A DNA stretch of 64,000 bases from an uncultured Bacteroidota bacterium (GTDB taxonomy: Bacteria > Bacteroidota > Bacteroidia > Bacteroidales > P3), in the NCBI GenBank assembly GCA_902784465.1, contig CACZUZ010000001.1, positions 1 through 64,000 of the forward strand. Direction: 5' to 3'. The position numbers and the translations under genes are program-made. Of this stretch, positions 43,904 through 59,972 are shown in pieces. Position 1 is the first letter of the stretch; the number at the start of each line of letters is the position of its first letter. The notes under the pieces are model-generated. The model searched no databases and was not told the DNA's origin. It saw nothing but the letters and a program-made list of their open reading frames with translations.

Positions 43904-43908
43904 CAACT

Positions 43909-43974: not shown

Positions 43975-43996
43975 AGATTTTGTATTTAATCAAGTG

Positions 43997-44004: not shown

Positions 44005-44010
44005 TCACTA

Positions 44011-44080
44011 TTTTAAGAAATGGCCAAAAATAGTTTTAAGAAATGGCCAAAAATAACTTTAAGAAATGGCTAAAAATAAT
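44011..44080. repeat. 23-bp tandem repeat, three units
   Basis: TTTTAAGAAATGGCCAAAAA followed by TAG occurs three times in a row with one or two changes (the third has GGCT). It lies upstream of the -7 box at 43997-44004, so it may affect that promoter. Confidence 0.75.
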
Positions 44081-44152
44081 TCGCCCCTCAATTTATACAA
44101 AAATGCGGTCAACTGCATATACTATGCTTACTACTTGTTAAATTACAATACG

Positions 44153-44596
44153 TTACCAGTAACGATGTTGCCATGAAATCGTTTCGCCATCTCCTTCAAT
44201 TATAAAGCGAAAGTGTATGTTGTTCTCATCACTCCCTTCGCTCCAGCGGACCAGGTATTCGACAGTGTCCTTGACAATAAACTCCGGATAAACGAGAAGT
44301 GTGTCGTATGGAAGCACCACCACCTTTTGCTGGGCAGTTCTGACATCGAGCAAGGTTACATTATCCACGACAGGAGAAACTATTTCAAACAATAGCGAGA
44401 AGACTGTATCTCCTGTTCGAAAAAGAATGGAGTCCCGAACAGTCACTCCATTAAGAATTTTGAAAGCAGAATAATCTGACGCGCTGGCAATAGATTCTGA
44501 TGATGAAGAAGAGGAGATGACAAATCCATCATCATCACACGATGCAAACAGTGAAATTAAAATTACTGCTGAAAGGAAAAGTTTAGTTTTTTTCAT
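44153..44596 (-). CDS. Small lipoprotein, last gene of the signalling cluster
   Basis: The protein has 147 residues. The signal peptide ends in a lipobox with C20 (SLFASCDDDG). The acidic residues after the cysteine and the serine-rich linker (ISSSSSSESIASASDYS) suggest surface or outer-membrane location. The remainder is beta-rich (VVDNVTLLDVRTAQQKVVVL, VEYLVRWSEGSDENNIHFRF). I do not recognise a family. It follows the WG-repeat genes by 45 bases and is in the same direction, so it probably belongs with them. Confidence 0.65.
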   Translation of the reverse strand: MKKTKLFLSAVILISLFASCDDDGFVISSSSSSESIASASDYSAFKILNGVTVRDSILFRTGDTVFSLLFEIVSPVVDNVTLLDVRTAQQKVVVLPYDTLLVYPEFIVKDTVEYLVRWSEGSDENNIHFRFIIEGDGETISWQHRYW

Positions 44597-44641
44597 AAAG
44601 ATAAGATTATTAAGTTTTACAAATTGTTTATATTGACAGTC

Positions 44642-46552
44642 TTAATAAGGCTTTAATTCAGAGATGTTCACACCTTGTGTTTTAAGGAACTTGAGTGACC
44701 ATTTGTCGTAACCAGCAAGAGCCCCAAGATACATGAAAACCACTGCTTTATCACGGTCTTTCTGGCAACCATTTCCATGCCAAAGGGCATAACCGCAATA
44801 ATTAATAGCTTGAGAATTAAAATTTAATCTTGCGGCTATCAGGTTCAAACGAATTGCCATATCATAATCTATTTTACAGCCCTTTCCATTAAAATACATG
44901 TAAGCCAATGCTGCAATGGCATCGGGATTGCCACCTTGTGCCGCACGATGACACCATTCGAATGCTTTGGCATAATTTTTATTACTATAGTAGTGCCGAT
45001 ACAAAGCATATTGGCAAGCATCTATACCTTTTTCTGCTGCTTTAACAAGACCATCGAAATCATTATTAAAATCAAATTCTGAGTTGTATTCTTTTCCATA
45101 ATTACCAATAATAACAGTGTCACGCCCTGTTTTCGACACCAAATAGCCTGAGCCCAATACCCAAGGCTTCCCTCCATAGAATAATTTTCTATAACCGTTT
45201 TTTGTGATGACATTCCCTGCGGTATCAATAAGATTCCATAGTCCATCCTCTTTCACCCATGCAGATCCTTCTCTGAACTTTTTTGCATCGTCGTATTTGC
45301 AAGGTATTACTATCTCACCAACGGAATTGATAAAGCCACTTTTCCCATTCTTTATAACTTTTGCTCGATTATTATCTCCAAAACAATAAGCATCTTCAAA
45401 TTGCGGTGTTATAACCTCTTTGCCCACCAAGTTTACATATCCATATTTATTGACTGTGTTATCACCTTCAACCTTTTTGATTGCAACTCTGCACAAACTT
45501 GTGTAGCCTGGGAAGCCGCAATTACAGACCCAATCATATTTGAATTCGGTTAATTGCTCCACCGCTATTTTCCCTTCATTCCATGAACCAATGCCAAACA
45601 ATGCCCATTTGTTGTTTTTTTTGAATAAAACAGGATATGAATCGTTGTAATTACTGACAAAACCATCATAAATACAGGGTAATACTTCCTCTCCTTTTCC
45701 GTTGAGCAGTCCATATTTACCATCTTTTCTAACAACAGTGGTAGAAATACCATAGCGCAACGAAGATCTCACTACAGTATCGTAAACAATAGGAACCACC
45801 TCTATACCTTTTTTGCTAACAAACCCATACTTCCCTTCTTGATAGACGCGTTCAAGCATTACGTTATCGTCCCAATGCATATCATCGTATGTCGTTTTTT
45901 CTGAATAGGTATATTTCAGAGGGGTTATAGCTACCCCATTGGAATCGATAAATCCATACTTTCCATGATACAAAACGAAAGATATGCCGCTTGATCCTTT
46001 TGCAACGGAATCGTACTTTGCTCCAAGAGGAATTGTCACGATGTTGTCTTGCCATCCTTTCTGATAGATATTAACTGTAGCAGTGACATATTCAATGCCA
46101 TAACCATATATCCCAAAAGACATTTTTCTGCCTTCAGTTGTCAAGTTTTTATTCCATCTTACAGTAATCGAATTGTTTTGCTTGTCTACATTAACAATCT
46201 CACAATTGGTTATGGTTGTGTTTGCAACGCTCCACCCGTCAGAATCCATTATTGAACTTGAAACCCTGAAAGTCATATCTGTTACATCTGGTTCAACAGT
46301 CAATTCCAATTCCCTCTGACCATTTATTTTCAATACTGGCTTGCAATTATTCATTCCTTCTTTGGCTTTCCTGCCATTTTCGAAACGATTTGCATCAGGG
46401 CACTGTGAAGCCTTCTTATAGTAATCGTATGCCGAGTTCCATTTGCCACGAGCGTAGGCAGCATCGGCTTTTTGTATGTTTGGCTCATAACACTGAGCCA
46501 TTGACATATTGACAATAACTAATGCCGTTATAAAAAACAAGAGATTTTTCAT
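44642..46552 (-). CDS. Exported WG-repeat protein with BACON-like and Sel1 repeats
   Basis: From the ATG at 46552 the product has 636 residues. Layout: signal peptide (MKNLLFFITALVIVNMSMAQ); a TPR-like module starting CYEPNIQKADAAYARGKW with CPD and KAKEGMNNC; a BACON-like beta domain; at least seven WG-type repeats (KYGFIDSNGVAITPLKY, KYGFVSKKGIEVVPIVY, KYGYVNLVGKEVITPQF, KSGFINSVGEIVIPCKY); C-terminal Sel1-like repeats (AFEWCHRAAQGGNPDAIAAL, YMYFNGKGCKIDYDMA). An ATG at 46615 overlaps the upstream stop (ATGA) but would add 21 residues before a good signal peptide. Probably a periplasmic or surface scaffold; partners unknown. Confidence 0.8.
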   Translation of the reverse strand: MKNLLFFITALVIVNMSMAQCYEPNIQKADAAYARGKWNSAYDYYKKASQCPDANRFENGRKAKEGMNNCKPVLKINGQRELELTVEPDVTDMTFRVSSSIMDSDGWSVANTTITNCEIVNVDKQNNSITVRWNKNLTTEGRKMSFGIYGYGIEYVTATVNIYQKGWQDNIVTIPLGAKYDSVAKGSSGISFVLYHGKYGFIDSNGVAITPLKYTYSEKTTYDDMHWDDNVMLERVYQEGKYGFVSKKGIEVVPIVYDTVVRSSLRYGISTTVVRKDGKYGLLNGKGEEVLPCIYDGFVSNYNDSYPVLFKKNNKWALFGIGSWNEGKIAVEQLTEFKYDWVCNCGFPGYTSLCRVAIKKVEGDNTVNKYGYVNLVGKEVITPQFEDAYCFGDNNRAKVIKNGKSGFINSVGEIVIPCKYDDAKKFREGSAWVKEDGLWNLIDTAGNVITKNGYRKLFYGGKPWVLGSGYLVSKTGRDTVIIGNYGKEYNSEFDFNNDFDGLVKAAEKGIDACQYALYRHYYSNKNYAKAFEWCHRAAQGGNPDAIAALAYMYFNGKGCKIDYDMAIRLNLIAARLNFNSQAINYCGYALWHGNGCQKDRDKAVVFMYLGALAGYDKWSLKFLKTQGVNISELKPY

Positions 46553-46611
46553 GGTTCTATTATTATAGCAATTAGAAATTTGCATCATTTTAATTAACAA
46601 TCGTTTATACC

Positions 46612-49071
46612 TCATAGCTCGTCAATAATATGAAATCTCTTGTCGATATAATAGTTCTTTCCATCTATAACTACTTTTGCACGTCCGCCTGTAAATTGAC
46701 CAGCACTATCGAAAATTGTAGGTATCACAATCTTGCCTGTTTTATCAATATAGCCCCATTTCGCACCAATCTTCACAGCTGCCAGCTCCTCCGAAAAAGG
46801 CTGAGCCTGATTGAATTGAGGCTGTATTGTCACGATGCCGAGCGTATCATTGAAAAACCCATAAATGTCATTGACAGAAAAGATTGATGGCGAAAAAGAT
46901 GTATTACCAATATTAATCTTCTTATGGTTCATTCCGTTTATATAATTACCGTTGGAATCAATTGTCATACAATAGTATTTGCCAAAAAGTGTTAATGTTC
47001 CATCTGAATTGAACGAAATATCCGGCCATTCAAGACGTGGAATATCATATATTTCACCTTTCCTATTGATTAGACTCGTTGAGTGCTTACCTCGTGCTAC
47101 TGCTAAACCATTTATCATAGGAGTCAATTGACTGAATGCACTGTCAACAATTTTCACTCCGTTCTTGTCAATAAGGCTGTAGCCCTCTTCCCCTTCGGTA
47201 ACTGCAATGGCATTTTTAAACAAATAAGTAAGGCAATTATGATCCTGACTATAACAACCATCATGAATATGCCCTATAATACAGAATTGTGTCTTTCCTT
47301 TTTTGTCAATAAAACAAATTGTCTTTTGGCTATTTTCGCCACTATTGCTTGTTGTTACAGCCGCCAAGCCCTCTGAAAATATTCTCGGAATAACTTCAGA
47401 AAAACCCTCATTAAACACGTTTCCTTTTGTATCAATTATATACCACCGCATACTATTTTCATCATAGACTTTGGCGAATCCATCTGAAAAAGGGAGTATG
47501 AATCTATATGATGGTTTTATCAATATTGTTCCATCAAGATTACAGTATCCAGACGAACTATTTTCTTTTCTAAAACCAATAATACCATCTGCAATAAAAT
47601 ACACATCATAAACATCTTTAGGTAACTGTATTTTCGTACCATCTCTCTTAATTACAAACCATTGCCAATATATCTTTTTCCCTGTCCATATACTATACTT
47701 TATTGCGATACCGTCTTCTGAAAAAAAACGAGACATTTCATAGTCCATGTCTGTATAATCTTTTTGTATTAATGAACCATTGTTATTCCATAATTCTATA
47801 CAACGCTTAACATGGGCTTCTCTATTGTTATAAGGAAAATTAGTATAATCATTTGTATCGTAAAAAATTGCATAATCATCGTTATCAAATCTGTGAAACC
47901 CAAGATGCTTTTTATCGTTCAATTCGTATTTTTTCAATGCATGTATTCCATTTTTGCCAACAGAATAAAGGGTAACAGTTCGATTCTTATTGTCAATATC
48001 ATCATCACTTTTTTCAACCTTCAAAAAGCAGTTATTGTTGATTGGATATAATCCAAATGACCAAACATAATGTTCTCTACCCGAATTTTCGGTATTGTTG
48101 ATTGAAAGTTTCCATAAATTAAATCTGTTTTTATAGAAAAGTGTTGAGGAAATGAATACAATCTCTCCTTTATGACTTATAAAACCGCTAACATTACCTT
48201 TCTTAAACGGTATGGCCGAATTTGGATTGACATTCAGATTTCCGATATCTATACGGGCTTTGGCTTTAAGATCTTCTTTGTTGCTGCAATCAGACTGAGT
48301 TACATGTATTGTTGCTGACTGGTTGTTGTAAGAAACTGTAATTGATTTGTCTCGACTGATGATTTTACTTTCGTTTGTATTCACAATCAGAAAGAACTGG
48401 TCTGACTCTTTCTGGACTGACATCCACGATGCATCGATGCCGGAAATGGTATAGTCCAGTCCTGAGGGTATGCCGCCGACATCGAAACGTGTCACGCCCC
48501 CCTCCCAAGAGAAAGAGCGTTCTAAATGTGTTCTGCCATTCACGGTCAGGCAACCATTAGCTTGAATTATTTGTATTTTTGCCACGGCATCGTATCTCAT
48601 ATCAATACATTGAGGACGAAATCCACCTTCGCCACTTATAGTAATCAACCACTCTCGAGGGGCTGTTGAAGTATTTTCATTCCATGACACTGTCAGTTTG
48701 CCGTCTGAAACATCAGGTGTAACAGACAATCCATTATTCGTGTTTGAAATCACAGACCACGAGGAGAGCCTTAAACTCTTTATGTCGAAGGACTGTTTGC
48801 CGGCATCTGATGATACTTTGACAATGATATCCTTCTCGCCATTGACAGTCAAGACAGGCAAACATTTGTATAACCCTTCTTTGGCTCTACTGCCATTATC
48901 GTGGCTTCTCGAATCAGGACAACACAGGGCACTGTCGTAGTGAGCAGCTGCCGTTTTGTAATTTCCTCTTGCATAAGCGGCATCAGCCTTCTTCAAATGA
49001 GGCTCATAACATTGGGCGCATAAATGTATAGATGCCATTATGCAAAGAAAAAGGATGATTTGATTTTTCAT
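46612..49071 (-). CDS. Exported protein with TPR-like module, two BACON-like domains and WG repeats
   Basis: The protein has 819 residues with a signal peptide (MKNQIILFLCIMASIHLCAQ). The N-terminal module CYEPHLKKADAAYARGNYKT with CCPDSRS and AKEGLYKC is shared with two other cluster proteins. Two BACON-like domains follow at about 80-165 and 180-260 (LSSWSVISN; ASWMSVQKE, YNNQSATIHVTQSD). From about 280 the sequence is divergent WG/beta-propeller-like, with clear WG units at the end (AVKIGAKWGYIDKTGKIVIP, AKVVIDGKNYYIDKRF). No membrane anchor, lipobox or T9SS tail is seen, so it is probably periplasmic. It is tightly linked to the next WG gene. Confidence 0.8.
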   Translation of the reverse strand: MKNQIILFLCIMASIHLCAQCYEPHLKKADAAYARGNYKTAAAHYDSALCCPDSRSHDNGSRAKEGLYKCLPVLTVNGEKDIIVKVSSDAGKQSFDIKSLRLSSWSVISNTNNGLSVTPDVSDGKLTVSWNENTSTAPREWLITISGEGGFRPQCIDMRYDAVAKIQIIQANGCLTVNGRTHLERSFSWEGGVTRFDVGGIPSGLDYTISGIDASWMSVQKESDQFFLIVNTNESKIISRDKSITVSYNNQSATIHVTQSDCSNKEDLKAKARIDIGNLNVNPNSAIPFKKGNVSGFISHKGEIVFISSTLFYKNRFNLWKLSINNTENSGREHYVWSFGLYPINNNCFLKVEKSDDDIDNKNRTVTLYSVGKNGIHALKKYELNDKKHLGFHRFDNDDYAIFYDTNDYTNFPYNNREAHVKRCIELWNNNGSLIQKDYTDMDYEMSRFFSEDGIAIKYSIWTGKKIYWQWFVIKRDGTKIQLPKDVYDVYFIADGIIGFRKENSSSGYCNLDGTILIKPSYRFILPFSDGFAKVYDENSMRWYIIDTKGNVFNEGFSEVIPRIFSEGLAAVTTSNSGENSQKTICFIDKKGKTQFCIIGHIHDGCYSQDHNCLTYLFKNAIAVTEGEEGYSLIDKNGVKIVDSAFSQLTPMINGLAVARGKHSTSLINRKGEIYDIPRLEWPDISFNSDGTLTLFGKYYCMTIDSNGNYINGMNHKKINIGNTSFSPSIFSVNDIYGFFNDTLGIVTIQPQFNQAQPFSEELAAVKIGAKWGYIDKTGKIVIPTIFDSAGQFTGGRAKVVIDGKNYYIDKRFHIIDEL

Positions 49072-49135
49072 TAGTAGTTATAATAATATACTGTTAAATA
49101 AATACTTAGAATAATAATCTTTGAGAGAGCATGAT

Positions 49136-49363
49136 CTACCCCACACGTCTGTACATACCATTCAGTATACTTTCTTCACATTTATCATTAAGGAAGTTGT
49201 GAAGAGGCATCATAAATCTTATGCCGAAGCTTTGTCTGTAAGAGTAACGCCACGACAGTGCATAATCTAATTCAAGACCGGATGACAGCATACTCTTTAT
49301 TGCGTTTTTCAGACTACCAGAAGCACCAACAACAAAATCATAAAAGACACCTGATTCTATCAT
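49136..49363 (-). CDS. 3' part of a small outer-membrane protein, possibly frameshifted
   Basis: This is a 75-codon frame whose ATG overlaps the stop of the preceding frame by four bases. It continues the same barrel-like pattern (GVFYDFVVGASGSLKNAIKS, LELDYALSWRYSYRQSFGIR). It has no signal peptide, so alone it could not be exported. The simplest reading is that it is the end of the protein encoded at 49360-49830, separated by a single-base change in the run of A near 49370. Confidence 0.5.
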   Translation of the reverse strand: MIESGVFYDFVVGASGSLKNAIKSMLSSGLELDYALSWRYSYRQSFGIRFMMPLHNFLNDKCEESILNGMYRRVG

Positions 49364-49830
49364 GATTTTTCTCCAATAACAACTCCAGCGCGTGGTTGAA
49401 AGTAGAATCCCCTTAGATTATTGTCATTTTTTTTGAAAGTAATCCCTTGACTCTTGAAATGGACCCCAACATACACTCCAAAGCGGTTCCATTTATACGT
49501 ACCGTCTAAGCCAATGCTGTAATCGCCAAGGTGTTTGAACGGATTGCTAAAAGCACTGTGATAAGGTCCATAGATTTCATTTGACTCGAAGCCGTTTTTT
49601 TCTATGCCAACAGGAAAAGCATCGGAAGGGTTTGGCATAAGAAATAGATAAATATCTTTAGCATTTGGATCCTCAATTAGGAAATAGAGTGCACGATAAA
49701 AAGATGTATAAATCAGCAGTGAATAGTAATTGGTAGTCCATGCCTTAGCGTTGAGGGGAAAACCCGTCTGAGCATTGGAACGAACTACAAACAAGATAAA
49801 AATGAATAGAAAGAGAACTACTTTCTTCAT
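49360..49830 (-). CDS. Small outer-membrane protein with signal peptide, N-terminal part
   Basis: The product is 156 residues with a signal peptide (MKKVVLFLFIFILFVVRSNA). The mature sequence contains alternating hydrophobic strands and turns (DYSIGLDGTYKWNRFGVYVG, FYFQPRAGVVIGEK) and stops abruptly in a strand. The frame at 49136-49363 seems to supply the missing strands; together they would be about 230 residues, a normal size for a small beta-barrel. No family recognised. Confidence 0.55.
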   Translation of the reverse strand: MKKVVLFLFIFILFVVRSNAQTGFPLNAKAWTTNYYSLLIYTSFYRALYFLIEDPNAKDIYLFLMPNPSDAFPVGIEKNGFESNEIYGPYHSAFSNPFKHLGDYSIGLDGTYKWNRFGVYVGVHFKSQGITFKKNDNNLRGFYFQPRAGVVIGEKS

Positions 49831-49880
49831 GATAATGTGTTTGTTTGAAGTTGGATTACAACTGTTTAAAAAGCCTTATA

Positions 49881-51665
49881 TTAGTTTGTTCGTCTGGATG
49901 AAAAATATTGATTTACAATGGCAATTGCCGAATCATAGTAAGGTACGTATTCTGCTGTGGTGCTGCTTCTCCATTCATAAAGGATGCTCTTTCCATTACA
50001 GAACACGCTGTCTACTTCCTTTAGTACAGGTATCAATATTTCGTTATAATAACGATTTATATCTGGCTGCTTGAAATCACAGCCTGAATATTCAATGCCA
50101 CAACTACCAGTTGTGACGATATTACTAGGATTTCCCGAAAAATAGGTTTTCATTTGTTCGGACATAATCTCAAGACTTAACGCAAAAGGTACCAGCTGTT
50201 TCAACTTTCCCATTTCTTCGGACTTAGAATAGTAGTAGTTAAATGTGTACGATGAAAGTGTATTAACTATTCTTGTTGATAATTCTGAGCATCTTGAAAG
50301 GTAAGCCTGAATCGTGTCGGTTGTTTCATTGTGAATTGATGAATAGTCACCTATGGAAGCATTGCTCGAAGGGTCTGAATAGTTCCATGCATAGTTCAGT
50401 GCTGCTAAATTATGCTCTGCATTGTCATACCGAACCATACAAATCAACGCATCATCAACATGCTCACCCTGTGGATAGTTATCAATATATGATTCGTATG
50501 AAGAAATATTATTTTCTTTTTTAGTTGCATGCCAGGCTTTACGTTCCTCATTTCCAAATCGAGTTAATAACAATGAGCCAAGGACAATACCAGCCATCAC
50601 CCATAATAATATATTTGTTATTGTTTTGTTGTATTTGTGCCAAAACTCCGACATTTTTTTCCATATAGAAGTGTGCGGAATGGAGTCTGGTTCCGGTGTC
50701 GGAGGGGTAGGGGATGATGAACCTGAGAATGACTTCCTTCTTTTTAATTTATCCTCTTTTATCTCTTTAGGAGCGCCCGGCCATTCCACTTTTCTTTGTT
50801 CGCTTTTCAATACATTTTGGGCGTAAACAAGTAGTTGGTCTGCGTGGGGGCGCTGAGATGGCTCTTTGGCCATGCAGTCGTAGATAAGTTGTTTCAACTC
50901 ATCAGAAAATCCCCTGCGCGTTATTTCGGGTATTTTCTGACCTATTGTCGGATTCAAACAATCACCCCCACACTCGACAAATGGTCGCCGTCCCTCCACT
51001 ATCTCAAATAACATAGCTCCAAACGACCAGATGTCGCTTGCTAACACAGAAAATCCTTTTCCTCTTGGAAAACGTTCCGGGGCTGCATAGTCTACAGTCA
51101 TGGCACTGTCTACAGTATGCTCTGAATCATCATTCGTGGAAGAAAGCGAGCTTAATCTTCTTTTGCTTATTCCAAAGTCCGATATGGCATACATGCCATT
51201 TGTACGGATTAGAATATTTGCAGGTTTTATGTCTTGATGAACAATAGGATCTGCAACTTCCGACGAAGAGCCGTCAAGACGTTCTTTGGGTCTCTTGTTT
51301 TCAGCCAGACGCTTCAAGCCTGAAGACACGTCACGAATCAAATGCCAAACTTCGATTTCAGTCAGATCCTTGTCTGCAAGGTCGGCGTTGCATAACTCCA
51401 TTACAAGGTAAGGAACAGTGCCTTCAGTAATGTCGACATAAGAAGGTGTCAACAAATTATCGTGATGAATATGCATCACACGAGTATATTCTTTGACAAT
51501 ATCCTGAGCTGCTTTTTTACTGTCTCCTTTCAAATGGATTTTAATAGCGAAGTATTTGTGCGTTACCTTGTCAAATGCTTTCCACACCTCACCAAATCCT
51601 CCTGCGCCAAGCCTCTCTTCTAAACGATAGCGTCCTGCAAAGATGTCATTTTTATGTAAATTCAT
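49881..51665 (-). CDS. Membrane-bound Ser/Thr protein kinase
   Basis: The protein has 594 residues. Kinase domain 12-290: glycine loop LGAGGFGEVW at 19-28, ATP-binding K42 in FAIKIH, catalytic loop VHQDIKPANI at 142-151 with Gln in place of the usual Arg (HQD, not HRD), DFG at 163-165, and APE in VDYAAPERFP. A Pro/Ser-rich linker (300-335) and one membrane segment at about 350-368 (TNILLWVMAGIVLGSLLL) follow, then a 220-residue periplasmic helical region of unknown fold. A Hanks-type receptor kinase with an extracytoplasmic sensor is the natural reading. It is the second kinase of the cluster and has no FHA domain. Confidence 0.92.
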   Translation of the reverse strand: MNLHKNDIFAGRYRLEERLGAGGFGEVWKAFDKVTHKYFAIKIHLKGDSKKAAQDIVKEYTRVMHIHHDNLLTPSYVDITEGTVPYLVMELCNADLADKDLTEIEVWHLIRDVSSGLKRLAENKRPKERLDGSSSEVADPIVHQDIKPANILIRTNGMYAISDFGISKRRLSSLSSTNDDSEHTVDSAMTVDYAAPERFPRGKGFSVLASDIWSFGAMLFEIVEGRRPFVECGGDCLNPTIGQKIPEITRRGFSDELKQLIYDCMAKEPSQRPHADQLLVYAQNVLKSEQRKVEWPGAPKEIKEDKLKRRKSFSGSSSPTPPTPEPDSIPHTSIWKKMSEFWHKYNKTITNILLWVMAGIVLGSLLLTRFGNEERKAWHATKKENNISSYESYIDNYPQGEHVDDALICMVRYDNAEHNLAALNYAWNYSDPSSNASIGDYSSIHNETTDTIQAYLSRCSELSTRIVNTLSSYTFNYYYSKSEEMGKLKQLVPFALSLEIMSEQMKTYFSGNPSNIVTTGSCGIEYSGCDFKQPDINRYYNEILIPVLKEVDSVFCNGKSILYEWRSSTTAEYVPYYDSAIAIVNQYFSSRRTN

Positions 51666-51694
51666 TAGTACTAGTAATATTTATCATTTGTAAA

Positions 51695-52231
51695 TTACCA
51701 TTCTTTAATTACTATATTCCCCTCTGATATCAAATCATCATTTTCGCGGCACCAATATTTCATATAATCATACATCCCTTGAATTCCAGCTCTATTATCA
51801 GAACCTCCCATGCTTACGTAATAGACGTCACTCCTTTTTATAATATATACATTATGTAACCCTCTGTCAAATAATTTTTTCGCAAATTGGGATGCAGATG
51901 CGAGATTTACAGAGAAACCTGCAATAATATCATATTTATATCTACTATTTGGTTCGACATTGACCATATCTGTAGGATTTGGTAACGTCGAAGTTCTTTT
52001 TGGTTTTTGCAGCCTCTTATCACATTTTCTAATACCATTTTTTGCAGTTTGTCCTTCATTGAAATTCTTGGCATCTGGACATCTTAGGGCCTTTTGATAC
52101 AATGATTTTGCTTCCTTGAATTTGCCTGCATCAAATGCTTTATCAGCTTCTTTAATATTAGGTTGATAGCATTGTGACCATGCATTCGCAGAAAGAAATA
52201 TGAGAGCGAGAAAAAGCGAGCTATATTTCAT
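51695..52231 (-). CDS. Exported protein with TPR-like module and SPOR-like C-terminus
   Basis: The protein has 178 residues with a signal peptide (MKYSSLFLALIFLSANAWSQ). The N-terminal module CYQPNIKEADKAFDAGKFKE with CPDAKNF and AKNGIRKC is the same as in the two WG-repeat proteins. The C-terminal 75 residues (YDIIAGFSVNLASASQFAKK, then VYIIKRSDVYYVSMGG and YDYMKYWC) follow the beta-alpha-beta layout of SPOR domains, which bind peptidoglycan. I infer a periplasmic, possibly cell-wall-associated partner. It starts 29 bases... upstream of the second kinase gene, in the same direction. Confidence 0.7.
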   Translation of the reverse strand: MKYSSLFLALIFLSANAWSQCYQPNIKEADKAFDAGKFKEAKSLYQKALRCPDAKNFNEGQTAKNGIRKCDKRLQKPKRTSTLPNPTDMVNVEPNSRYKYDIIAGFSVNLASASQFAKKLFDRGLHNVYIIKRSDVYYVSMGGSDNRAGIQGMYDYMKYWCRENDDLISEGNIVIKEW

Positions 52232-52389
52232 GCAATTACAAGGATTAGATTAACTGTTTAGTCTTTTTGTTGGTGTCTGTTTATGTGTTGATTGATAGGT
52301 GCTTTGTTGTTTTGATTACTCACGATTTACTTGGGTAAAAAAACAGGACGTAATGACCTTGAAACAAAGAAGGAAGGACATTCGGGCGA

Positions 52390-53700: not shown

Positions 53701-54563
53701 TAGTTTTTCTTGTTTCTTTTATTCTTTTTACCCTGATTATGTTGTGAGTGAGGTGATGGAGTCAGTTCGTTGACAGGTTCCTCATCAGGGCTTGAACCAA
53801 CTTGATTGTTAGCAATGTTACGGTGAATTGGTACCAGCAACCATCCAGCACTATCCTTAATTGCTATGCCAGCCACCCTTAATTGTATCATGCCGGCCTT
53901 TGGATATGTGGGTACAACCCATACAGCACCGACAGGTTTAGGTGCGGCAACGCTGTCGCGAACCATACTTGGCATTGCTGGAACTACAACGGGTTGGGCT
54001 GTTATTGAGCCATTTAATTCCGAGGAACATACAATAGCCGACGTTGAAACTGCACCTGCTTTGCCAAGTGTATCCGATGCGAAACACCAAAGCAACCAAC
54101 CATTCCTGTAAGAAGTGTCGCTATGTATCGACAAAGCGGGGATGTTGACTAAAGAATCTGAACGCACACTCATTATTAAGGATGATGAAGAATCTATGCT
54201 TATTGGCAAAGAACTGTACGAACTATCCCCAATTGGTCGAAAGGACATTTCACTCAGTACGGGTTTGTGAGATTGACTATACCGCGTGTAGTCTGTGTCG
54301 TACAACCATGGTTTAATGGATGACGAGGCTGTAATAAGACCAGAGTCGGTTACAATGCCCAAAGTATATCCTTGACTGAATTCTGTCCGGTTGTTTCTTC
54401 CATAATGTTGCCCTGAACTATCTTGTAATTTGTATGCGCTGCATACTACAACAAGCGAAGGTTCAATAGACTGCTTCACCATTGCTTGATTGGGAGTTAT
54501 GCCCCATTGAGCCGACACGGCTATCGGCAACAATACAAAAGTCGTTATGAGTATTCTTTTCAT
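53700..54563 (-). CDS. Exported protease-like protein lacking catalytic residues
   Basis: The protein has 287 residues with a signal peptide (MKRILITTFVLLPIAVSA). It shows a chymotrypsin-like order without the triad. YTLGIVTDSGLITASSSI sits where active enzymes have GFxLxxGxxVTAxHC; the region before the end, IQLRVAGIAIKDSAGWLLVP, resembles the strand after the catalytic serine (VVVGIVS...WAVPI) in the neighbouring protease, but GNSGGP is absent. The C-terminus is a basic, polar tail (QHNQGKKNKRNKKN). I infer an inactive paralogue of the adjacent FHA-protease; confidence in the fold is moderate. It starts 4 bases after that gene. Confidence 0.6.
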   Translation of the reverse strand: MKRILITTFVLLPIAVSAQWGITPNQAMVKQSIEPSLVVVCSAYKLQDSSGQHYGRNNRTEFSQGYTLGIVTDSGLITASSSIKPWLYDTDYTRYSQSHKPVLSEMSFRPIGDSSYSSLPISIDSSSSLIMSVRSDSLVNIPALSIHSDTSYRNGWLLWCFASDTLGKAGAVSTSAIVCSSELNGSITAQPVVVPAMPSMVRDSVAAPKPVGAVWVVPTYPKAGMIQLRVAGIAIKDSAGWLLVPIHRNIANNQVGSSPDEEPVNELTPSPHSQHNQGKKNKRNKKN

Positions 54564-54567
54564 GGTT

Positions 54568-56193
54568 TTATCTGTTTCCGATTCTACTTATTGGCACAGC
54601 CCAATTATACAGTGAAGACCTACTATCCCCACGTGAAACTATTCCGACGACCACTAATTTACCATTTTTAACTGCAAAAATGGGTCCACCAGAATTACCA
54701 TGGTCTGTTCCTGTTGAATGCATTATACATCCATTACTGGAAATGCCAGATTGGGTCACATTCATTTGATATGAAATAGGTTCTATCCTGCTTGCACTTT
54801 CGACCCCCAGTCCCATTGGGAAACCCATAACAAGCAATTGTTGCTGACTTGAAAGGTTCGTGCTCAATGTGGCATCAGCCTCCAGCGTACCTGTATATTG
54901 AGTTTGTGCCCATGCCCAATCCGTGGCAAACATTGTAGGATCCCAACCCTCTATTAATGGGAATACGAAACGCCACTTTATGGCCGTACCGTCCTCTGCG
55001 GTTGCGACAGTTTCGACATGATCTCTGCTTCTGTCTATGTGGAATTGGTCGGAAGTAAGAGAGATACGACGTCCGCTTTTGCTTGAATAGGCCGTTATGT
55101 ACGATTTCATCTTCAAGTCAGACCTCGTTAATGTTGATCTTGCCCATTGAGCATAAGAGTTTGTGTCGTTATAGGAATTATACCACCAGCCTTCGACACA
55201 ATGACGTGCCGTGACAAAGCGGCCATCGTTTAGCAGAAAACCCGTTGCGGTCCAACCATATTGTGACGTGCGAACCTCACCACTTTCATTTCTATAGTAA
55301 TATGGGATTTCTACCTCTTCACCATTAATTACCACTACGGTTTTTGCAACAATAAAGAATACATCGGCTGCAAGATTTTGGTTGTTCATCATCTCATCAA
55401 TGCCGGGTTCTCTAGTCGGAGGTGTCACAGATTCTAGTCGTCTACGTTCTTGGGCTGATATTCGATTTTCTTGCTCTTCTATTTTCTGCTGAAGACCCGC
55501 AACCTCTTCAGCTCTTTCAATATTATTTCTGTCAAGTTCTTCTTGAAGGGCCTCTATTACTCTCTGGTGATGTATATGCTCATAAACAGCATAAGCAACC
55601 CATAATACAGCTAAAGCAACAATAATTCCGATAAGAGTTTTTATGGTTTTCTTATAGGGTGCAATGGCTTGGCTTACAACATTCCTTACAAATGTTGTTC
55701 CTCGAGATTTGCTGCGCAAGTTCTGTATGCTGTTCTCTTTTGGAACTACAAAGCGGATTGTCGGACCGCCTTTTGCGAGCTGAATAGTGTCACCGTTTTG
55801 CAGCACATATTTCTTGAAGGAATCTTCTGGTCTTATGATGCGGCTACCACCATTGACTATGGTGCTGTTTGTCTTAGAAAGATGCTCCAAAGTCCATTCA
55901 CCGCCGTTGCGGGAGATTGAGATGTGCTTGCCACTCACTTTACCTTCGATGCCCTCATCCCGATACCTTACAGCGCAACTGCTACTGCGACCAATCTCAA
56001 CATAGTCGACAAGTATTTGTTTCTTCTCACCAACATGATGTGATGACGTGTCGCTTAAGAATTCTATTTCGAAATAATAGCCATCTTTTTTCCCGAATGC
56101 TGCACCGATGCTTTGACCAATGCTGCGTGAGAACGATGGTTTACGTCCTGGCATAGAGGACGTTTGATTTCGGGTTTCTCCGTGTGTAGCCAT
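54568..56193 (-). CDS. FHA domain-transmembrane-trypsin-like serine protease fusion
   Basis: The protein has 541 residues. FHA domain about 41-138 (EIGRSSSCAVRY, GKHISISRNGGEWTLEHLSK, NGDTIQLAKG), membrane segment about 184-205 (IKTLIGIIVALAVLWVAYAV), coiled coil about 210-255, then a trypsin-like domain. The catalytic residues are H331 in VTARHCVEG, probably D425 in FATDWAWAQ, and S501 in GTDHGNSGGPIFA. The FHA part is cytoplasmic and would bind phosphothreonine from the kinases; the protease is in the periplasm. The ATG at 56193 is chosen, as the longer frame overlaps the previous gene without features. This looks like an output component. Confidence 0.88.
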   Translation of the reverse strand: MATHGETRNQTSSMPGRKPSFSRSIGQSIGAAFGKKDGYYFEIEFLSDTSSHHVGEKKQILVDYVEIGRSSSCAVRYRDEGIEGKVSGKHISISRNGGEWTLEHLSKTNSTIVNGGSRIIRPEDSFKKYVLQNGDTIQLAKGGPTIRFVVPKENSIQNLRSKSRGTTFVRNVVSQAIAPYKKTIKTLIGIIVALAVLWVAYAVYEHIHHQRVIEALQEELDRNNIERAEEVAGLQQKIEEQENRISAQERRRLESVTPPTREPGIDEMMNNQNLAADVFFIVAKTVVVINGEEVEIPYYYRNESGEVRTSQYGWTATGFLLNDGRFVTARHCVEGWWYNSYNDTNSYAQWARSTLTRSDLKMKSYITAYSSKSGRRISLTSDQFHIDRSRDHVETVATAEDGTAIKWRFVFPLIEGWDPTMFATDWAWAQTQYTGTLEADATLSTNLSSQQQLLVMGFPMGLGVESASRIEPISYQMNVTQSGISSNGCIMHSTGTDHGNSGGPIFAVKNGKLVVVGIVSRGDSRSSLYNWAVPISRIGNR

Positions 56194-56206
56194 ATTATTG
56201 TTTTTT

Positions 56207-56950
56207 TTATTTGTATAGACGATTGATAAGGTTGTGAAGCACATACGTCCTCATCCGTGTGTAAAGGTCGTCCTGTCGTTTTTGGAGAGCATGGATGGCC
56301 AGCATGAGGATAATGCTTAAAAAGAGTGCGACAAGTGTGGTGTCGAAAGCCACCGCAAGTGCGCTGGTGACTTTCTCAATTCCTTCGGGTGATGAAGCCT
56401 CGTTGGCATAGCCTAAAGATGATGCAATTCCGAGTACGGTTCCAATAAAACCCACGGATGGAATGGCCCACGAAATATAGCGAATAAACGACTGGTCGCT
56501 TTCCACTTCGGCATTCAAATTGGCCGATTCACTTTCGAGCACACTCAAAGCCTCGGATGATGATTTGCTTATGCGGTACTTCAAACATACCATTATGGCA
56601 AGGTCTACCAACTGGAAATGCGTTTGCTTGTTTTTCTCCTCCAGTTTCTGTTTCAGCTGATAAGCATCGTCGGCACTATATAGCCACTCTTTATCCTCGA
56701 CCAAAAAATGTCTGTCGAAAGCCTGCTCTTCATAACGCAATTTGTTGCTTATGGCAGCAACTTCCAAGATGCCCCAGAAGAATAGGAAATAGGTGGCACC
56801 TTGTATTAGTCCTGCAGGTAGGTCGCCACCAAGCATAACAATAATCCTTGCAGGTTTTTCTCCTAAGTTGCCAATCATTACAAGAATGGCCATCAAAATA
56901 GCAGCCAACAGGATGCTGATAACTACTCTGCTTGTTCTTGTCTTTATCAT
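56207..56950 (-). CDS. MotA/TolQ/ExbB-like proton channel protein
   Basis: The protein has 247 residues. Predicted membrane segments lie at about 7-27, 45-67, 158-180 and 195-220. The last two carry the family signature: YISWAIPSVGFIGTVLGIAS and then SALAVAFDTTLVALFLSIIL. The loop between segments 2 and 3 is cytoplasmic and helical. Family members form a pentamer around a MotB/TolR-type dimer and use ion flow to do mechanical work. It overlaps the TolR/MotB-like gene by four bases, which supports the pair. Confidence 0.9.
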   Translation of the reverse strand: MIKTRTSRVVISILLAAILMAILVMIGNLGEKPARIIVMLGGDLPAGLIQGATYFLFFWGILEVAAISNKLRYEEQAFDRHFLVEDKEWLYSADDAYQLKQKLEEKNKQTHFQLVDLAIMVCLKYRISKSSSEALSVLESESANLNAEVESDQSFIRYISWAIPSVGFIGTVLGIASSLGYANEASSPEGIEKVTSALAVAFDTTLVALFLSIILMLAIHALQKRQDDLYTRMRTYVLHNLINRLYK

Positions 56951-57813
56951 TGTTGTTGTAAATTAATATTGTTTTCTGTTACTGTTAAGACACCAATCGT
57001 AACCATTTGGCCTGGAGTGGTAAGCGTGATTCTTCGGTATGGGATTTTTATTTCATTTGCTTTGCCAGGGTGTAATGTCACATAACCTTCGACGTGTGCT
57101 GATGATGCATTACTCATGGATGCTTGGCTATAGATGTTAACTGCAATGCGATACCTGCCAGGTTTGATATGTCTTTGATAGAACAATTCATACCTGTCAT
57201 CATCAGAATTCTCTCGTGAGGTTATATCCTCATTCAACTGGCCAAAAGCAGTTATTTTTTTATGGTAAAAACAAGTTTCATTGGTGTTCAAATCCGTAAC
57301 ATACAAATCAACATCAATGTTCTCTCGCCACAAACAGACCACGCCGAGTTCTGCGTCCACGCCAAAAATTCGGCCAACTTGGCTGGCTTGTCTTTGCCTG
57401 TTCAGTTGTTCCTCCAACTCGGCAATACGTTGCCGCTGTTGTTCCGCTTGTTCTGCTTGCTGTCGCAACTGTTCAATTTCTTGCCTCAACCTCTCGTTTT
57501 CCTGTCTGGACTGAGCCAACTGCTGTTGCATTGTGTTTACCTGTTCTGAAAGTCGCTCGATCGTGTTTTGGAGTTCTTCTATCTGTTGCATGATTGCATC
57601 AAACTGCTCTTGTGGAACAGAATTCTCCAATTGTTGCATCATTTCTGCAAGTTCTGTTACTTGAATTCCAGCCTGTGTAATTTCTTCCATCGCCTGCTGG
57701 TCTGCGGATGACATCTTGGGTACAATAACGAACAGAATGATGACTGCGGCCAAAGCACCTGAAAGTAGGTCAAGGAATGAAGTACCAAATACATTTATCT
57801 CTTTGCGTTCCAT
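56947..57813 (-). CDS. MotB/TolR-like channel partner with long coiled coil
   Basis: The protein has 288 residues. The N-terminus is a short cytoplasmic tail and a single membrane segment, NVFGTSFLDLLSGALAAVII at 8-27, with D16 where MotB/TolR proteins have the proton-binding Asp. Residues 38-140 are a long coiled coil rich in Gln and Glu (AEQAEQQRQRIAELEEQLNR). The C-terminal domain (ELGVVCLWRENIDVDLYVTD, PGRYRIAVNIYSQ) is beta-rich, unlike the OmpA-like peptidoglycan-binding domain of MotB. It pairs with the MotA/ExbB-like gene. A peptidoglycan or substrate contact through the C-terminal domain is inference. Confidence 0.85.
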   Translation of the reverse strand: MERKEINVFGTSFLDLLSGALAAVIILFVIVPKMSSADQQAMEEITQAGIQVTELAEMMQQLENSVPQEQFDAIMQQIEELQNTIERLSEQVNTMQQQLAQSRQENERLRQEIEQLRQQAEQAEQQRQRIAELEEQLNRQRQASQVGRIFGVDAELGVVCLWRENIDVDLYVTDLNTNETCFYHKKITAFGQLNEDITSRENSDDDRYELFYQRHIKPGRYRIAVNIYSQASMSNASSAHVEGYVTLHPGKANEIKIPYRRITLTTPGQMVTIGVLTVTENNINLQQQ

Positions 57814-57823
57814 AATTCATTTA

Positions 57824-59242
57824 TTAAGTCCAACGTGGGTTCTTATGCCTCTCTCCACCATAATATAACCATCCATCTGAATCATAGCCATAAACTCGGA
57901 TGCGTATTTCCCCAATATAAATGATATCGTCTACCTCAAGGCGAACACCATTCAATCCATCGACTTCACGAGAATTGACGTATGTGCCATTTTTTGAACG
58001 CTGCCAAGAATGTGTTTCTTTGAGGTATTGTCCATCTCGAATATACCAATGATGGCCAGTCTCATCCCATTCTAATGTTGCATGATGACGTGAAATAAAT
58101 CGGTTTTCGTCGTCATATAGTTCGATATCATTAATCACTCCGTCGTAGTGACGCCCAATTGTCAATATACATTTGCCTTTATCACGTAATCCTGTGTGCG
58201 GCATTCCCCTTTTATCCCCATATAAAACCACTAAACCATAATCGGATATTTGTGGATAGTTGTGAATTATTCCCCTACTTTTACTATGGGTATAATTATT
58301 ATCACTTGTCTGAGTATTACATATTTGTGGAAATTGCATTTCGATCTGGGCAATTAATTCTTTGACGTCACCCTGTCGCTTTTGATAGTTTCCTTTCAAA
58401 CATGGCTCCAAAAAATTCATCCAAAACCTCGCATTATTAGTATTAGCTAAAGCATTGCGATTCCATTCATCATTGTTTGCATGGGCATAGTAGACTGCCA
58501 TATCGGAATCGGTACGGATTGAGCCAAAGGGGAATGCACCAGTTAGTAACATGTAATTCATCACAGCGAAGGCGAAAACGTCTATCGTAGGCATAACCAT
58601 TACCTCCTTTTTTCCACGGATAGGATTGACCTGTTCTGGGGGGGCAAAAGCTTTGGTATAGAACGATTGCTTAGGAACACCCATTACATATTGTGTGGTG
58701 TATCGGTTGTTTTCATCACCAGCCAAATCAAAATCATTCAGAGCAATTGTCCCATCAGTACGAAGCATGACATTTTCTGGTTTGATATCACGATGCACCA
58801 TTCCTTTGCTATGCAGTTCATATAGTCCAAGAAGAACCTGATGCATGCATCGTATAACCTCTTGTTCTCGGCGGCTATTCTCGACTTTTTCAAAATAGTC
58901 AAGCAAATCACCATTAGGACAAAACTCCATCACGTAAAAGGGATTGCCTTCGACTTCGCCGCAATCAACAGAATGAACCAGATGTTTACTTGGAGCGTTC
59001 ATTACTTGGTAGGCTCTTTCAAACCGCTTCCTGTAATTATCTTGTTCCTTCTTATTTAGAGTCCATAATTTCAACACCTTCAGTGCAAACGATTTTTCAT
59101 CGGTACATGATTTTACAAGATACACTATACCAAAGCCGCCCTCGCCAAGTTTGCGGATAACCTCATAATTCTTGGCAGTGTCAGTATTGTTTTTCCCCTT
59201 GATGATATCACCAGATTTCAATATACATTCTTGAGGCATCAT
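57824..59242 (-). CDS. Ser/Thr protein kinase with C-terminal FHA domain
   Basis: The protein has 472 residues with no membrane segment. Kinase domain about 25-280: glycine loop LGEGGFGIVYLV at 32-43, K55 in FALKVLK, HRDIKPEN at 150-157, then NDFDLAG at 169-175, where the usual DFG is DFD. APPEQ is the APE equivalent. FHA domain about 345-455: LTIGRHYDGVINDIELYDDE, FISRHHATLEWD and SKNGTYVNSREVDG. The ATG at 59242 is used; a TTG nine codons earlier overlaps the upstream gene. Combined writer and reader of phosphothreonine in one protein, as expected for the hub of this cluster. Confidence 0.92.
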   Translation of the reverse strand: MMPQECILKSGDIIKGKNNTDTAKNYEVIRKLGEGGFGIVYLVKSCTDEKSFALKVLKLWTLNKKEQDNYRKRFERAYQVMNAPSKHLVHSVDCGEVEGNPFYVMEFCPNGDLLDYFEKVENSRREQEVIRCMHQVLLGLYELHSKGMVHRDIKPENVMLRTDGTIALNDFDLAGDENNRYTTQYVMGVPKQSFYTKAFAPPEQVNPIRGKKEVMVMPTIDVFAFAVMNYMLLTGAFPFGSIRTDSDMAVYYAHANNDEWNRNALANTNNARFWMNFLEPCLKGNYQKRQGDVKELIAQIEMQFPQICNTQTSDNNYTHSKSRGIIHNYPQISDYGLVVLYGDKRGMPHTGLRDKGKCILTIGRHYDGVINDIELYDDENRFISRHHATLEWDETGHHWYIRDGQYLKETHSWQRSKNGTYVNSREVDGLNGVRLEVDDIIYIGEIRIRVYGYDSDGWLYYGGERHKNPRWT

Positions 59243-59252
59243 AATAAAATAC

Positions 59253-59972
59253 CTATTGTCCTGTTTCAAAACGGAAATACTTATTCCCTAATACTATGAC
59301 ATCACCATTGTCGATTGGGGTCTTCCCCTTGACAACAAGATATGTCTGATGCGTAGAACTGACATCTTCAATATACCATTGTCCTCCCTCGTTTGTCACA
59401 TGGATGTGTTTTCGGGAAATATGGTTGTCGTTTGGCGCAAGTTCTTCCCTGCCTAAAATGACATCGTCGACTGTATATGTCTTAGATTCACCAAGATTTC
59501 CGTTTTTGTCACATAATCCGATCTTGAATTCCGGATTAGCCATATTCCAGACTGGTTCAGATTGATTCCGGCTGAAAGAAGCAGATTGCCTGCTTCCTTT
59601 TTCATTTTCATCTTTCTGTTCAAGATTATTCTGACAATTTGGACATACTTTGACTCCTGGACGAAGCACATATCCACAAACAGGGCAACTGCTGTTTCTC
59701 TCCTCATAGTCTTCTCCCACCGTGGGCTGTCTCATCTCTGAACTGCTGAAACGATGACTATCGTGATTTGGCGGCAAACTGTTTATCCTTTCCCTTACAA
59801 TTGAGCCTTCCAGTGATGCGTTACAACTGCAACACTTTTTTGCCCCAGCAGGGTTCATTGTACCACAAAAATTGCAACGGATCTCACCTCCGTGATTTTT
59901 GGTCTCTTTGCTACTATTAGGGCAACCGTCGGCGTGACCGTTTATCTGGCCACAGATTTCACATCTTCCCAT
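59253..59972 (-). CDS. Zinc-ribbon and FHA domain protein, first gene of the signalling cluster
   Basis: The protein has 239 residues and is cytoplasmic. Cys-rich elements: CEICGQINGHADGC at 4-17, CNFCGTMNPAGAKKCCSC at 33-50, and CPVCGYVLRPGVKVCPNC at about 95-112, the last two being classic zinc ribbons. A polar linker leads to an FHA domain at about 150-235 (DDVILGREELAPNDNHISRK, HIHVTNEGGQWYIEDVSS, NGDVIVLGNKYFRF). It is probably a phosphothreonine-reading adaptor. It is the most upstream gene of the co-directional cluster and precedes the kinase by 10 bases. Confidence 0.88.
   Translation of the reverse strand: MGRCEICGQINGHADGCPNSSKETKNHGGEIRCNFCGTMNPAGAKKCCSCNASLEGSIVRERINSLPPNHDSHRFSSSEMRQPTVGEDYEERNSSCPVCGYVLRPGVKVCPNCQNNLEQKDENEKGSRQSASFSRNQSEPVWNMANPEFKIGLCDKNGNLGESKTYTVDDVILGREELAPNDNHISRKHIHVTNEGGQWYIEDVSSTHQTYLVVKGKTPIDNGDVIVLGNKYFRFETGQ

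Follow-up and report, generated by a model that had tools for sequence, protein, structure and literature searches.

The window examined here, a 64,000-nucleotide stretch of DNA from an uncultured Bacteroidota bacterium, contains a dense block of kinase, FHA, phosphatase, protease and ion-channel-like genes. This locus raises the question of whether these genes form a genuine system and, if so, what such a system would do.

Organization of the block

The preliminary description had reported about 13 co-directional genes, most of them joined by overlaps and short gaps. All 13 ORFs were recovered on the minus strand (44153-59972), with intergenic distances of -38 to +288 bp (Table 1). Gene calls were mechanical ORFs, and identities were assigned by phmmer or HMM. 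The domain content read from the sequence was reproduced by Pfam (two Pkinase, PP2C, three FHA, MotA_ExbB, WG and Sel1 repeats), as were the fusions of FHA to a double zinc ribbon, to a kinase, and to a trypsin. The SPOR and BACON domains were only partly sustained, as Pfam matches exist but fall under the cut-off. The gene designated MotB/TolR-like was recognised from a single N-terminal transmembrane (TM) segment with an invariant Asp rather than from the Pfam matches listed. FHATryp probably starts at 56193, 17 codons into the listed ORF, because the closest homologue is 541 aa long and Met18 hardly varies. An Rfam scan of 41000-61000 gave no matches.

Table 1. Features of the locus (positions in the window).
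Feature	Coordinates	Strand	Description	Evidence
Insert	41476..60821		19,346 bp without counterpart in congener G076, whose syntenic site measures 98 bp	
ZnFHA	59253..59972	-	zinc ribbons (DZR) and FHA, 239 aa, predicted cytosolic	Pfam DZR 8e-7, FHA 1.4e-8; no TM window
KinFHA	57824..59269	-	481-aa fusion of a Ser/Thr kinase and FHA	Pfam Pkinase 1.7e-39, FHA 1.1e-14
MotB/ExbD-like subunit	56947..57813	-	one TM with invariant Asp15, coiled coil, C-terminal DUF2135-like beta domain, TerD-like fold	alignment and fold search
MotA/TolQ/ExbB-like subunit	56207..56950	-	247 aa	Pfam MotA_ExbB 1.2e-15
FHATryp	54568..56193 (listed ORF to 56244)	-	FHA, TM, coil, and a trypsin-like protease domain predicted to be periplasmic	Pfam FHA, Trypsin_2; TM window 203-221
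X287	53700..54563	-	secreted, HtrA/trypsin fold without conserved His or Ser; predicted pseudoprotease	
PP2C phosphatase	52390..53700	-	one TM and outer tail	Pfam PP2C_2 2.3e-15; TM window 342-360
Exported protein, variable part	51695..52231	-	TPR-like N-terminus and weak SPOR	SPOR E 0.0065, under cut-off
Kin2	49881..51665	-	one-pass membrane Ser/Thr kinase, outer C-terminal domain	Pfam Pkinase 2.5e-36; TM window 349-367
Exported 156-aa protein, variable part	49360..49830	-	N-terminal hydrophobic segment	
Exported TPR-like/BACON-like/WG-repeat protein, variable part	46612..49071	-		Pfam WG 1.4e-29, BACON 0.017
Exported WG-repeat and Sel1 protein, variable part	44642..46615	-		Pfam WG 4.7e-33, Sel1 2.3e-10
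Small putative lipoprotein, 147 aa	44153..44596	-	cassette membership putative	Pfam DUF6567 0.023 only

A cassette with recurrent gene order

Scanning one genome per species with a sequence pattern for the MotB-like gene returned 72 loci, of which 30 carry at least four of six core genes and 16 of these 30 carry all seven genes including X287. The 42 loci that failed the four-of-six rule were left out of the counts; they include Bacteriovoracaceae MotA-MotB pairs, MotB beside a divergent PP2C, L027, L028, and short contigs. The KinFHA of L017 and the MotA of L021, each split over two ORFs, were kept split. The recurrent order is ZnFHA (present in 26 of 30 loci), KinFHA, MotB-like, MotA-like, FHATryp, X287, and PP2C, followed mostly by one-pass kinases. 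Where both partners occur, they lie within 300 bp of each other in 24/25 loci for ZnFHA-KinFHA, 20/21 for FHATryp-X287, and 18/21 for X287-PP2C. Named carriers are Odoribacter laneus YIT 12061, Phaeodactylibacter xiamenensis KD52, and Bacteroides sp. 519.

Because these loci were found through MotB, MotAB is over-represented among them. Samples based on FHATryp correct for this bias but are small. FHATryp was found in 7 of 395 genomes of the class (E up to 1e-20) and 7 of 120 of the genus, each count including the window's own genome. Five of the six other class genomes have X287, PP2C, ZnFHA, and KinFHA beside FHATryp, although two of these five (L104 and L105), whose contigs match L043 and L038 in length, probably duplicate those two members of the 30; in the sixth, where a contig end cuts the locus, X287 and PP2C are beside it. 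The distribution, over Bacteroidota and related groups, is very patchy.

Kinase, FHA, and PP2C genes frequently cluster in bacteria, and a chance neighbourhood of unrelated signalling genes would be one explanation for the block. However, the genes stand in the same order, and next to one another, in 30 other loci from Bacteroidales, Balneolaceae, Saprospiraceae, and Chitinophagales; the neighbourhood is therefore not chance, and we consider that explanation refuted, its residual probability being minute. The preliminary description is supported in its view of the block as a system, which is real, conserved, and probably moved horizontally.

The cassette lies in an AT-rich insert

When the window was compared with L087 by blastn, homology stopped at 41475 and restarted at 60822, and in G076 the genes flanking the insert stand side by side. 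The GC content of the insert is 40.3% versus 54.6% and 56.4% in the flanks, and its GC3 is 0.40/0.34 versus 0.75, which bears out the suggestion that the block is AT-rich relative to the core genes on both sides. The window FHATryp is 37-39% identical to the copies of L010, L016, and L018 and 30-32% identical to those of congeners, whereas for the flanking M49 gene the identities are 87% (G024) and 66% (G028). The empty site, the GC3 gap, and these discordant identities agree with the horizontal transfer suggested earlier, and the sequence comparisons indicate that the cassette was likely acquired horizontally. The reported transposon debris was not corroborated: hairpins and an AAA_14/DUF4143 ATPase gene were seen, but no transposase was identified, two of the ORFs there having been scanned by Pfam. 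A search of the other loci at 1e-5 returned no relative of this ATPase, which was therefore dropped as a cassette component.

A membrane FHA-protease and its partner

The FHATryp triad His348/Asp442/Ser518, characteristic of S1 trypsin-like proteases, is retained in 30/30 aligned rows, and the FHA residues Arg86/Ser104/His107 are invariant in 30 rows (both in the numbering of the 558-aa ORF). In a crude hydropathy scan just 15 of 29 rows gave a single TM window, and the topology is therefore a prediction. X287 has an HtrA/trypsin fold but lacks the catalytic triad, with no conserved His and no strongly conserved Ser over 40 rows, and it is predicted to be a pseudoprotease. It went undetected in 9 of 30 loci and in L115, and is thus not obligatory.

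Kinases, phosphatase, and variable outer domains

The catalytic residues of the signalling enzymes are well kept. K64, D161, and D179 of KinFHA are invariant (28 rows); the window copy reads DFD where the other 26 readable copies read DFG, a change that may weaken this kinase. K42, H143, D145, and D163 of Kin2 are invariant (30 rows), with the Gly of DFG missing in three copies, and so are D66, D231, and D284 of PP2C (28 rows). PP2C has exactly one TM window in 26/27 proteins. A TM window starting at residues 290-480 was found in 28 of 29 Kin2 proteins, and 25 of 29 have exactly one; by the crude hydropathy scan, the other four have 4-5 windows (three proteins) or none (one protein).

The kinase domain of Kin2 does not vary between loci, but its outer domain does. 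Among the families listed (first 25 of 38; n=30), these domains comprise FGE (4), Sel1 (3), WG (2), Ank (2), and BACON, MORN, TPR, and CarboxypepD_reg (1 each), while that of the window Kin2 matches no family among the Pfam matches listed. Free neighbouring proteins (28 scanned) carry BACON (7), FGE (1), and MORN (1), as well as WG (2) and Sel1 (1), the last two being confined to the window's own proteins. The domain types common to Kin2 outer parts and free neighbours are a Rosetta-stone pattern. The exported WG/BACON/Sel1/SPOR proteins, previously placed within the machine, form the variable part and do not belong to the machine itself.

The MotA/MotB-like pair is dispensable

With a MotA_ExbB domain and a one-TM partner bearing a TM Asp, the pair belongs to the MotA/TolQ/ExbB and MotB/ExbD stator superfamily. 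Asp15 of the MotB-like protein is invariant (25 rows), its FLD motif occurs in 30/30 cassette proteins, and Thr171, Thr204, and Thr205 of the MotA-like protein are invariant (30 rows). The best 25 of 45 Pfam matches of the MotB-like protein all lie in its coiled coil, and its head matches the DUF2135-bearing protein L005 (residues 151-276, E 1.8e-6). By pattern, 22 of 30 heads are DUF2135-like and 5 are vWA; L020 and L029 were assigned by eye as DUF2135-like and L049 as vWA. In the predicted model, of modest overall confidence (pTM 0.49, head mostly pLDDT 85-97), the head resembles the TerD fold; Foldseek alone returned nothing below 0.001. Membership in TerD was not supported, as profile-profile comparison with TerD proteins of 10 loci, at low alignment depth, gave no match; the likeness was kept as one of fold only.

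An ion-driven envelope stator of the MotAB/TolQR/ExbBD kind could be the heart of the system, with the kinases, FHA proteins, and protease regulating it as in the Agl-Glt, flagellar, or T9SS motors. The invariant Asp15 and MotA threonines agree with this, as does the position of the two genes mid-operon with tiny gaps; moreover, in the Agl-Glt machinery of Myxococcus the FHA-domain membrane protein GltG accompanies the TolQ/R-type motor AglRQS (PMC3169522). The cited sections of that source describe no kinase/PP2C/trypsin core and note that this gliding apparatus lacks conservation among Bacteroidetes (PMC3169522). Against the stator as the heart, no OmpA domain was found for the MotB-like proteins scanned, among the matches listed, and six loci sampled through FHATryp have the cassette core without MotA/MotB in place: L101-L103, in whose genomes MotB has no match at 1e-10, and the congeners L114-L116. 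The absence in L114 and L115 refers to the fetched DNA: the L114 contig stops about 600 bp past ZnFHA, and that of L115 ends inside KinFHA, but there KinFHA is directly followed by FHATryp. MotB has no match genome-wide in G024 and G028 (L114). These loci do not support the ion-channel pair as a fixed part of the core; we rejected MotAB as an essential component, regard the pair as dispensable, and consider the stator-centred explanation quite unlikely. A TssR-like gene occurs in L029, with a relative in L115 and no others; by sequence, nothing in the PDB is related to the L115 protein.

Comparison with known systems

The T6SS-associated PpkA-PppA-Fha and the Ter-linked TerY-P systems combine a kinase with PP2C and FHA, or a zinc-ribbon kinase with PP2C. 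The window block differs in having no recognised T6SS genes: TIGR03354 (TagH/Fha) scored at most 29.4 bits against 120.25, no T6SS family appeared among the Pfam matches listed, and the MotB head shares only a TerD-like fold. MAD6 of MADS scored 128.9 and 99 bits against an NCBI cut-off of 460.

The KKP antiphage module encodes two Ser/Thr kinases, one with a cold-shock domain and one with FHA, plus a PP2C in one operon (PMC11341870). The window cassette also has two Ser/Thr kinases, one with FHA, and a PP2C. However, no cold-shock domain was found among the Pfam matches listed, the second kinase has a TM segment and an outer domain, and the cassette adds the zinc-ribbon FHA protein, the membrane FHA-trypsin, X287, and membrane sensor kinases; the KKP description cited mentions no protease (PMC11341870).

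Zorya, in the sections cited, likewise has a MotA/MotB-like pair with a conserved TM Asp and consists of ZorAB with ZorCD or ZorE (PMC11890865). The cassette lacks the C-terminal peptidoglycan-binding domain of ZorB, its head being DUF2135-like or vWA, and the long ZorA tail, since its MotA has 247 aa and ZorA models (461-683 positions) match weakly, at E 1.7e-6 at best. ZorC, ZorD, and ZorE gave no match among those listed (8 of 13 block proteins; best 25 rows for three), and in the cassette the pair is dispensable. The PADLOC matches listed for the block (2023 library; same 8 of 13 proteins, best 25 rows for three) are confined to kinases, proteases, coiled coils, and, weakly, ZorA. In line with the initial impression, we found no described system like this cassette in the literature searched, PADLOC, or NCBIfam, the matches of the latter two being generic or under cut-off.

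Defence or housekeeping

A defence role had been suggested as a possibility, and the evidence divides. The flanks showed no defence-island pattern in a scan, with no control set, that covered 125 of the 207 ORFs flanking or intervening. PADLOC matches there are few, the commonest family occurring in 3/125 (first 25 of 85 families); the families listed include a few methyltransferases and a single type II restriction enzyme. The most frequent Pfam families are housekeeping (first 25 of 149). The viral contigs and plasmids searched held no cassette copies. On the other side, a distant cassette of the same genus (L118) pairs an FHA-trypsin with a TIR-TM-lectin-type receptor, whose TIR, NADase-like, matches tir-1/SARM1 (E 5e-19) and whose outer part is similar to Treponema variable protein 1 (5e-10).

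A distinct antiphage system, in which envelope sensors detect infection and the protease (or a TIR NADase in cousins) kills or protects the cell, would accommodate L118. Kinase-phosphatase modules can be antiphage (PMC11341870), and conflict systems described in the cited parts of the literature join FGE/C-type-lectin heads to trypsin or TIR effectors (PMC10907252). The STAND/VMAP conflict systems share variable lectin-type heads, a trypsin-like peptidase, kinases and, with the cousin, TIR (PMC10907252, PMC7159879, in the sections cited), but no NTPase hub was recognised in the cassette core, where signalling would run through kinase/FHA/PP2C across the membrane. Against a dedicated antiphage system stand the scarce PADLOC matches, the presence of TIR in only one of the loci searched, and an L118 trypsin of only 28% identity; we judge it possible but on the unlikely side.

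Conversely, the cassette could be an accessory, non-immune regulator of envelope stress or cell-surface housekeeping, working by DegS-like regulated proteolysis under kinase control. The trypsin and HtrA-like folds fit such a role, as do the lack of viral or plasmid copies and the housekeeping character of the commonest flank families listed. Its patchiness, its varying sensors, and its place in an AT-rich insertion with an empty site argue against it, and we consider this explanation unlikely.

Proposed mechanism

The reading we favour most, with slightly less than even confidence, is that the cassette works as a phosphorylation-gated membrane protease with exchangeable sensors. Kin2 and the exported WG/BACON/Sel1 proteins would read a periplasmic or surface condition. 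Kin2 and KinFHA would then phosphorylate threonines bound by the three FHA proteins, which would gather at the membrane. Once its cytosolic FHA was bound, FHATryp would activate its external trypsin domain, regulated or scaffolded by X287, itself catalytically empty, and PP2C would return the system to its starting state. In some loci, the window among them, the MotA/MotB-like stator, headed by a DUF2135-like or vWA domain, would contribute proton-driven motion or ion flow.

The cassette likely senses envelope trouble and would respond by switching the protease on; as its purpose, we prefer an answer to envelope attack by phage, toxins, or competitors. It might further represent a new class of envelope receptor immunity, with swapped sensor heads (kinases or free exported proteins), a phosphothreonine/FHA relay, a periplasmic protease, and interchangeable actuators, namely a proton-driven stator with a DUF2135 or vWA head, a TssR-like/ABC module, or, in the cousin, a SARM1-like TIR NADase. 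We regard this extension as speculative and rather improbable.

The analysis offers a defined core (ZnFHA, KinFHA, FHATryp, X287, PP2C, and Kin2) with testable residues, in named carriers that make the cassette testable, and it adds unusual stator heads, DUF2135-like or vWA, to the MotAB superfamily. If the mechanism holds, it would be a case of inside-out bacterial signalling in which a kinase/FHA/phosphatase switch governs a protease across the membrane and receptor heads vary like those of immune receptors, and it would explain why WG, BACON, MORN, Sel1, and FGE domains accompany the kinases of Bacteroidota.

The gene block in the window is an insertion

The window belongs to a 2.53-Mb draft genome that is 84% complete and presumably from the Bacteroidales, judging from the closest records of this cassette. 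ORF and domain scans gave 13 minus-strand ORFs that agree with the list in the preliminary description (Table). They encode ZnFHA (zinc ribbons and FHA), KinFHA (a Ser/Thr kinase fused to FHA), a MotB-like and MotA-like pair (MotAB), FHATryp (FHA, membrane segment, coil and trypsin-like protease), X287 (a secreted predicted pseudoprotease of the HtrA/trypsin fold), the phosphatase PP2C, the membrane kinase Kin2 and further proteins. FHATryp likely starts at Met18 of the listed ORF, which turns the -38 overlap into a 13-bp gap, the median in other loci.

In the window, genes for an M49 peptidase and a DUF5686 protein flank the block, 19,346 bp apart. The same two genes lie 98 bp apart in the congener G076, with a spacer lacking homology, and are likewise side by side in G079. 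The GC content is 40% inside the insert versus 55-56% outside it. The block is thus an insertion, which additionally contains an AAA_14/DUF4143 ATPase gene and a 182-aa ORF, neither counted here among the parts of the cassette; the ATPase has no relative at 1e-5 in the other loci. Because of a perfect inverted repeat inside it, the 182-aa ORF may not be a real gene.

Table. Coordinates and arrangement of features in the window and in compared loci (L).
Feature	Location	Strand	Observation
Cassette	window 44153-59972	-	13 ORFs
Core block			ZnFHA, KinFHA, MotB-like, MotA-like, FHATryp, X287, PP2C in reading order; gaps -38 to 10 bp
After core block			SPOR-like, Kin2, 156-aa exported protein, two WG-repeat proteins, small lipoprotein; gaps -4 to 288 bp
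KinFHA	window 57827-59269	-	DFD instead of DFG; DFG in 26 other pattern-readable copies
182-aa ORF	window 43355-43903		possibly not a gene
Inverted repeat	window 43583-43687		perfect, 25 nt, 55-nt spacer, within 182-aa ORF
Hairpin units	window 41541-41655		two in tandem, 57 nt, 95% alike; left end of insert
Tandem repeats	window 44011-44079		three of 23 nt, downstream of cassette
DUF5686 paralogue	window 37063-39702		on one side of M49 gene
Second DUF5686 paralogue	window 60823-63657		on other side of M49 gene; insert lies between M49 gene and this paralogue
Eco57I-type restriction-modification gene	L040:14292-18089		adjoins cassette; also matches IS200-like transposase domain within itself (588-705)
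TssR-like and ABC ATPase genes	L029:16603-19990; L115:3-3125		adjoin kinase/FHA cassette
TIR - TM - FGE/lectin-type protein	L118:3045-4349	-	N- and C-terminal matches

Conservation and gene order

Scanning genome_contigs with a pattern from the MotB-like alignment yielded 72 loci, the records nearest to the window in this cassette being Bacteroidales. With the window's own locus left out, 30 carried at least four of ZnFHA, KinFHA, MotB, MotA, FHATryp and PP2C. Among these 30, ZnFHA was present in 26, KinFHA in 25, MotB in 30, MotA in 29, FHATryp in 29, X287 in 21 and PP2C in 29; 16 had all seven. Two main gene orders were observed, besides variants: ZnFHA-KinFHA-MotB-MotA-FHATryp-X287-PP2C-Kin2 (Bacteroidales records, Phaeodactylibacter), and MotA-MotB-FHATryp-(X287)-PP2C-ZnFHA-KinFHA with Kin2 at one end (Balneolaceae, Chitinophagales and others). 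The cassette is a conserved system.

Since this sample had been taken through MotB, a second was taken through FHATryp, which matched in 7/395 genomes of the class (E up to 1e-20), the window's own among them. MotAB was present in G230 and G428, which probably duplicate L043 and L038. In three genomes (G233, G326 and G355) the arrangement is FHATryp-X287-PP2C-ZnFHA-KinFHA; upstream of it lies an unrelated membrane protein, and none of the three gave a MotB match at 1e-10. Kin2 was found in two of them, and the contig ends in the third. A contig end also interrupts the cassette of G450. Among the congeners, L114 and L116 carry a core that lacks MotAB; at L115, FHATryp comes directly after KinFHA. 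Therefore, the kinase/FHA/phosphatase/protease core is the invariant part and MotAB an add-on.

Bacteriovoracaceae records among L053-L078 have a MotA-like gene followed by a MotB-like gene, with no kinase cassette in the DNA examined. In nine loci, mostly Chitinophagales (L030, L033, L036, L037, L041, L042, L044-L046), a MotB-like gene is divergent from a PP2C gene, with no MotA relative detected nearby. The sole MotB-like protein of each group scanned by Pfam (L056 and L030, respectively) has a vWA head.

Variable sensors and other modules

A transmembrane window starting at residues 290-480 was found in 28/29 Kin2 proteins, and 25/29 had exactly one transmembrane window in all. Among the first 25 of 38 families matched by 30 Kin2 proteins, those of the outer domains were FGE (4), Sel1 (3), WG (2), Ank (2), and BACON, MORN, TPR and CarboxypepD_reg (1 each); nine scanned singly included MORN, BACON, FGE, WG and CarboxypepD_reg. 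Free neighbour proteins (28 scanned, E up to 0.02) gave BACON 7, FGE 1 and MORN 1, besides WG 2 and Sel1 1, which are the window's own proteins; the window carries sensor heads in free form. Finding the same heads joined to a kinase at some loci and on their own at others suggests cooperation between the free heads and Kin2.

The TssR-like protein of L029 matches Pfam TssR (2.2e-14) and is 22% identical to that of L115 over 835 positions (E 6e-31). Together with the adjoining ABC ATPase, it may form a further actuator besides MotAB, or connect the cassette to the Bacteroidota T6SS.

Probable independent acquisition within the genus

The FHATryp profile matched 7/120 genus genomes, the window's own included: full length in G028, G077 and G024, and in the trypsin part alone in G591, G612 and G569. 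The full-length copies share 30-32% identity with the window copy, and those of loci L010, L016 and L018 share 37-39%; for the M49 gene, identity between G024 and the window is 87%. In G028, G077 and G024, FHATryp and the M49 gene lie on different contigs, which in draft genomes is suggestive only. Independent acquisition is the simplest reading.

Defence context and proposed function

No relatives were found in viral_contigs or plasmids. PADLOC, run on 125/207 flanking or intervening ORFs, returned 85 families, the commonest in three members; the first 25 families listed include a few methyltransferases and a single type II restriction enzyme. The commonest Pfam families in the flanks were Mur ligases, LepA and similar. 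This uncontrolled flank scan gives no sign of defence islands. An immune role is hinted at most strongly by a single case, L118, a distant FHA-trypsin cassette of the window's genus whose trypsin part is 28% identical and keeps the His and Ser motifs. There, a TIR domain seems to take the place of the kinase: the N-terminus of one of its proteins matches the TIR NADases tir-1 and SARM1 (4.9e-19) and its C-terminus Treponema variable protein 1 (5e-10).

No published description was found in the literature searched, which leaves out most subscription journals. The cassette is a real, mobile signalling cassette without a name so far. Its best reading, held tentatively and with a little less than even confidence, is that a phosphorylation relay of the kinases, FHA proteins and PP2C would switch on the trypsin domain of FHATryp outside the inner membrane, with exchangeable sensors.
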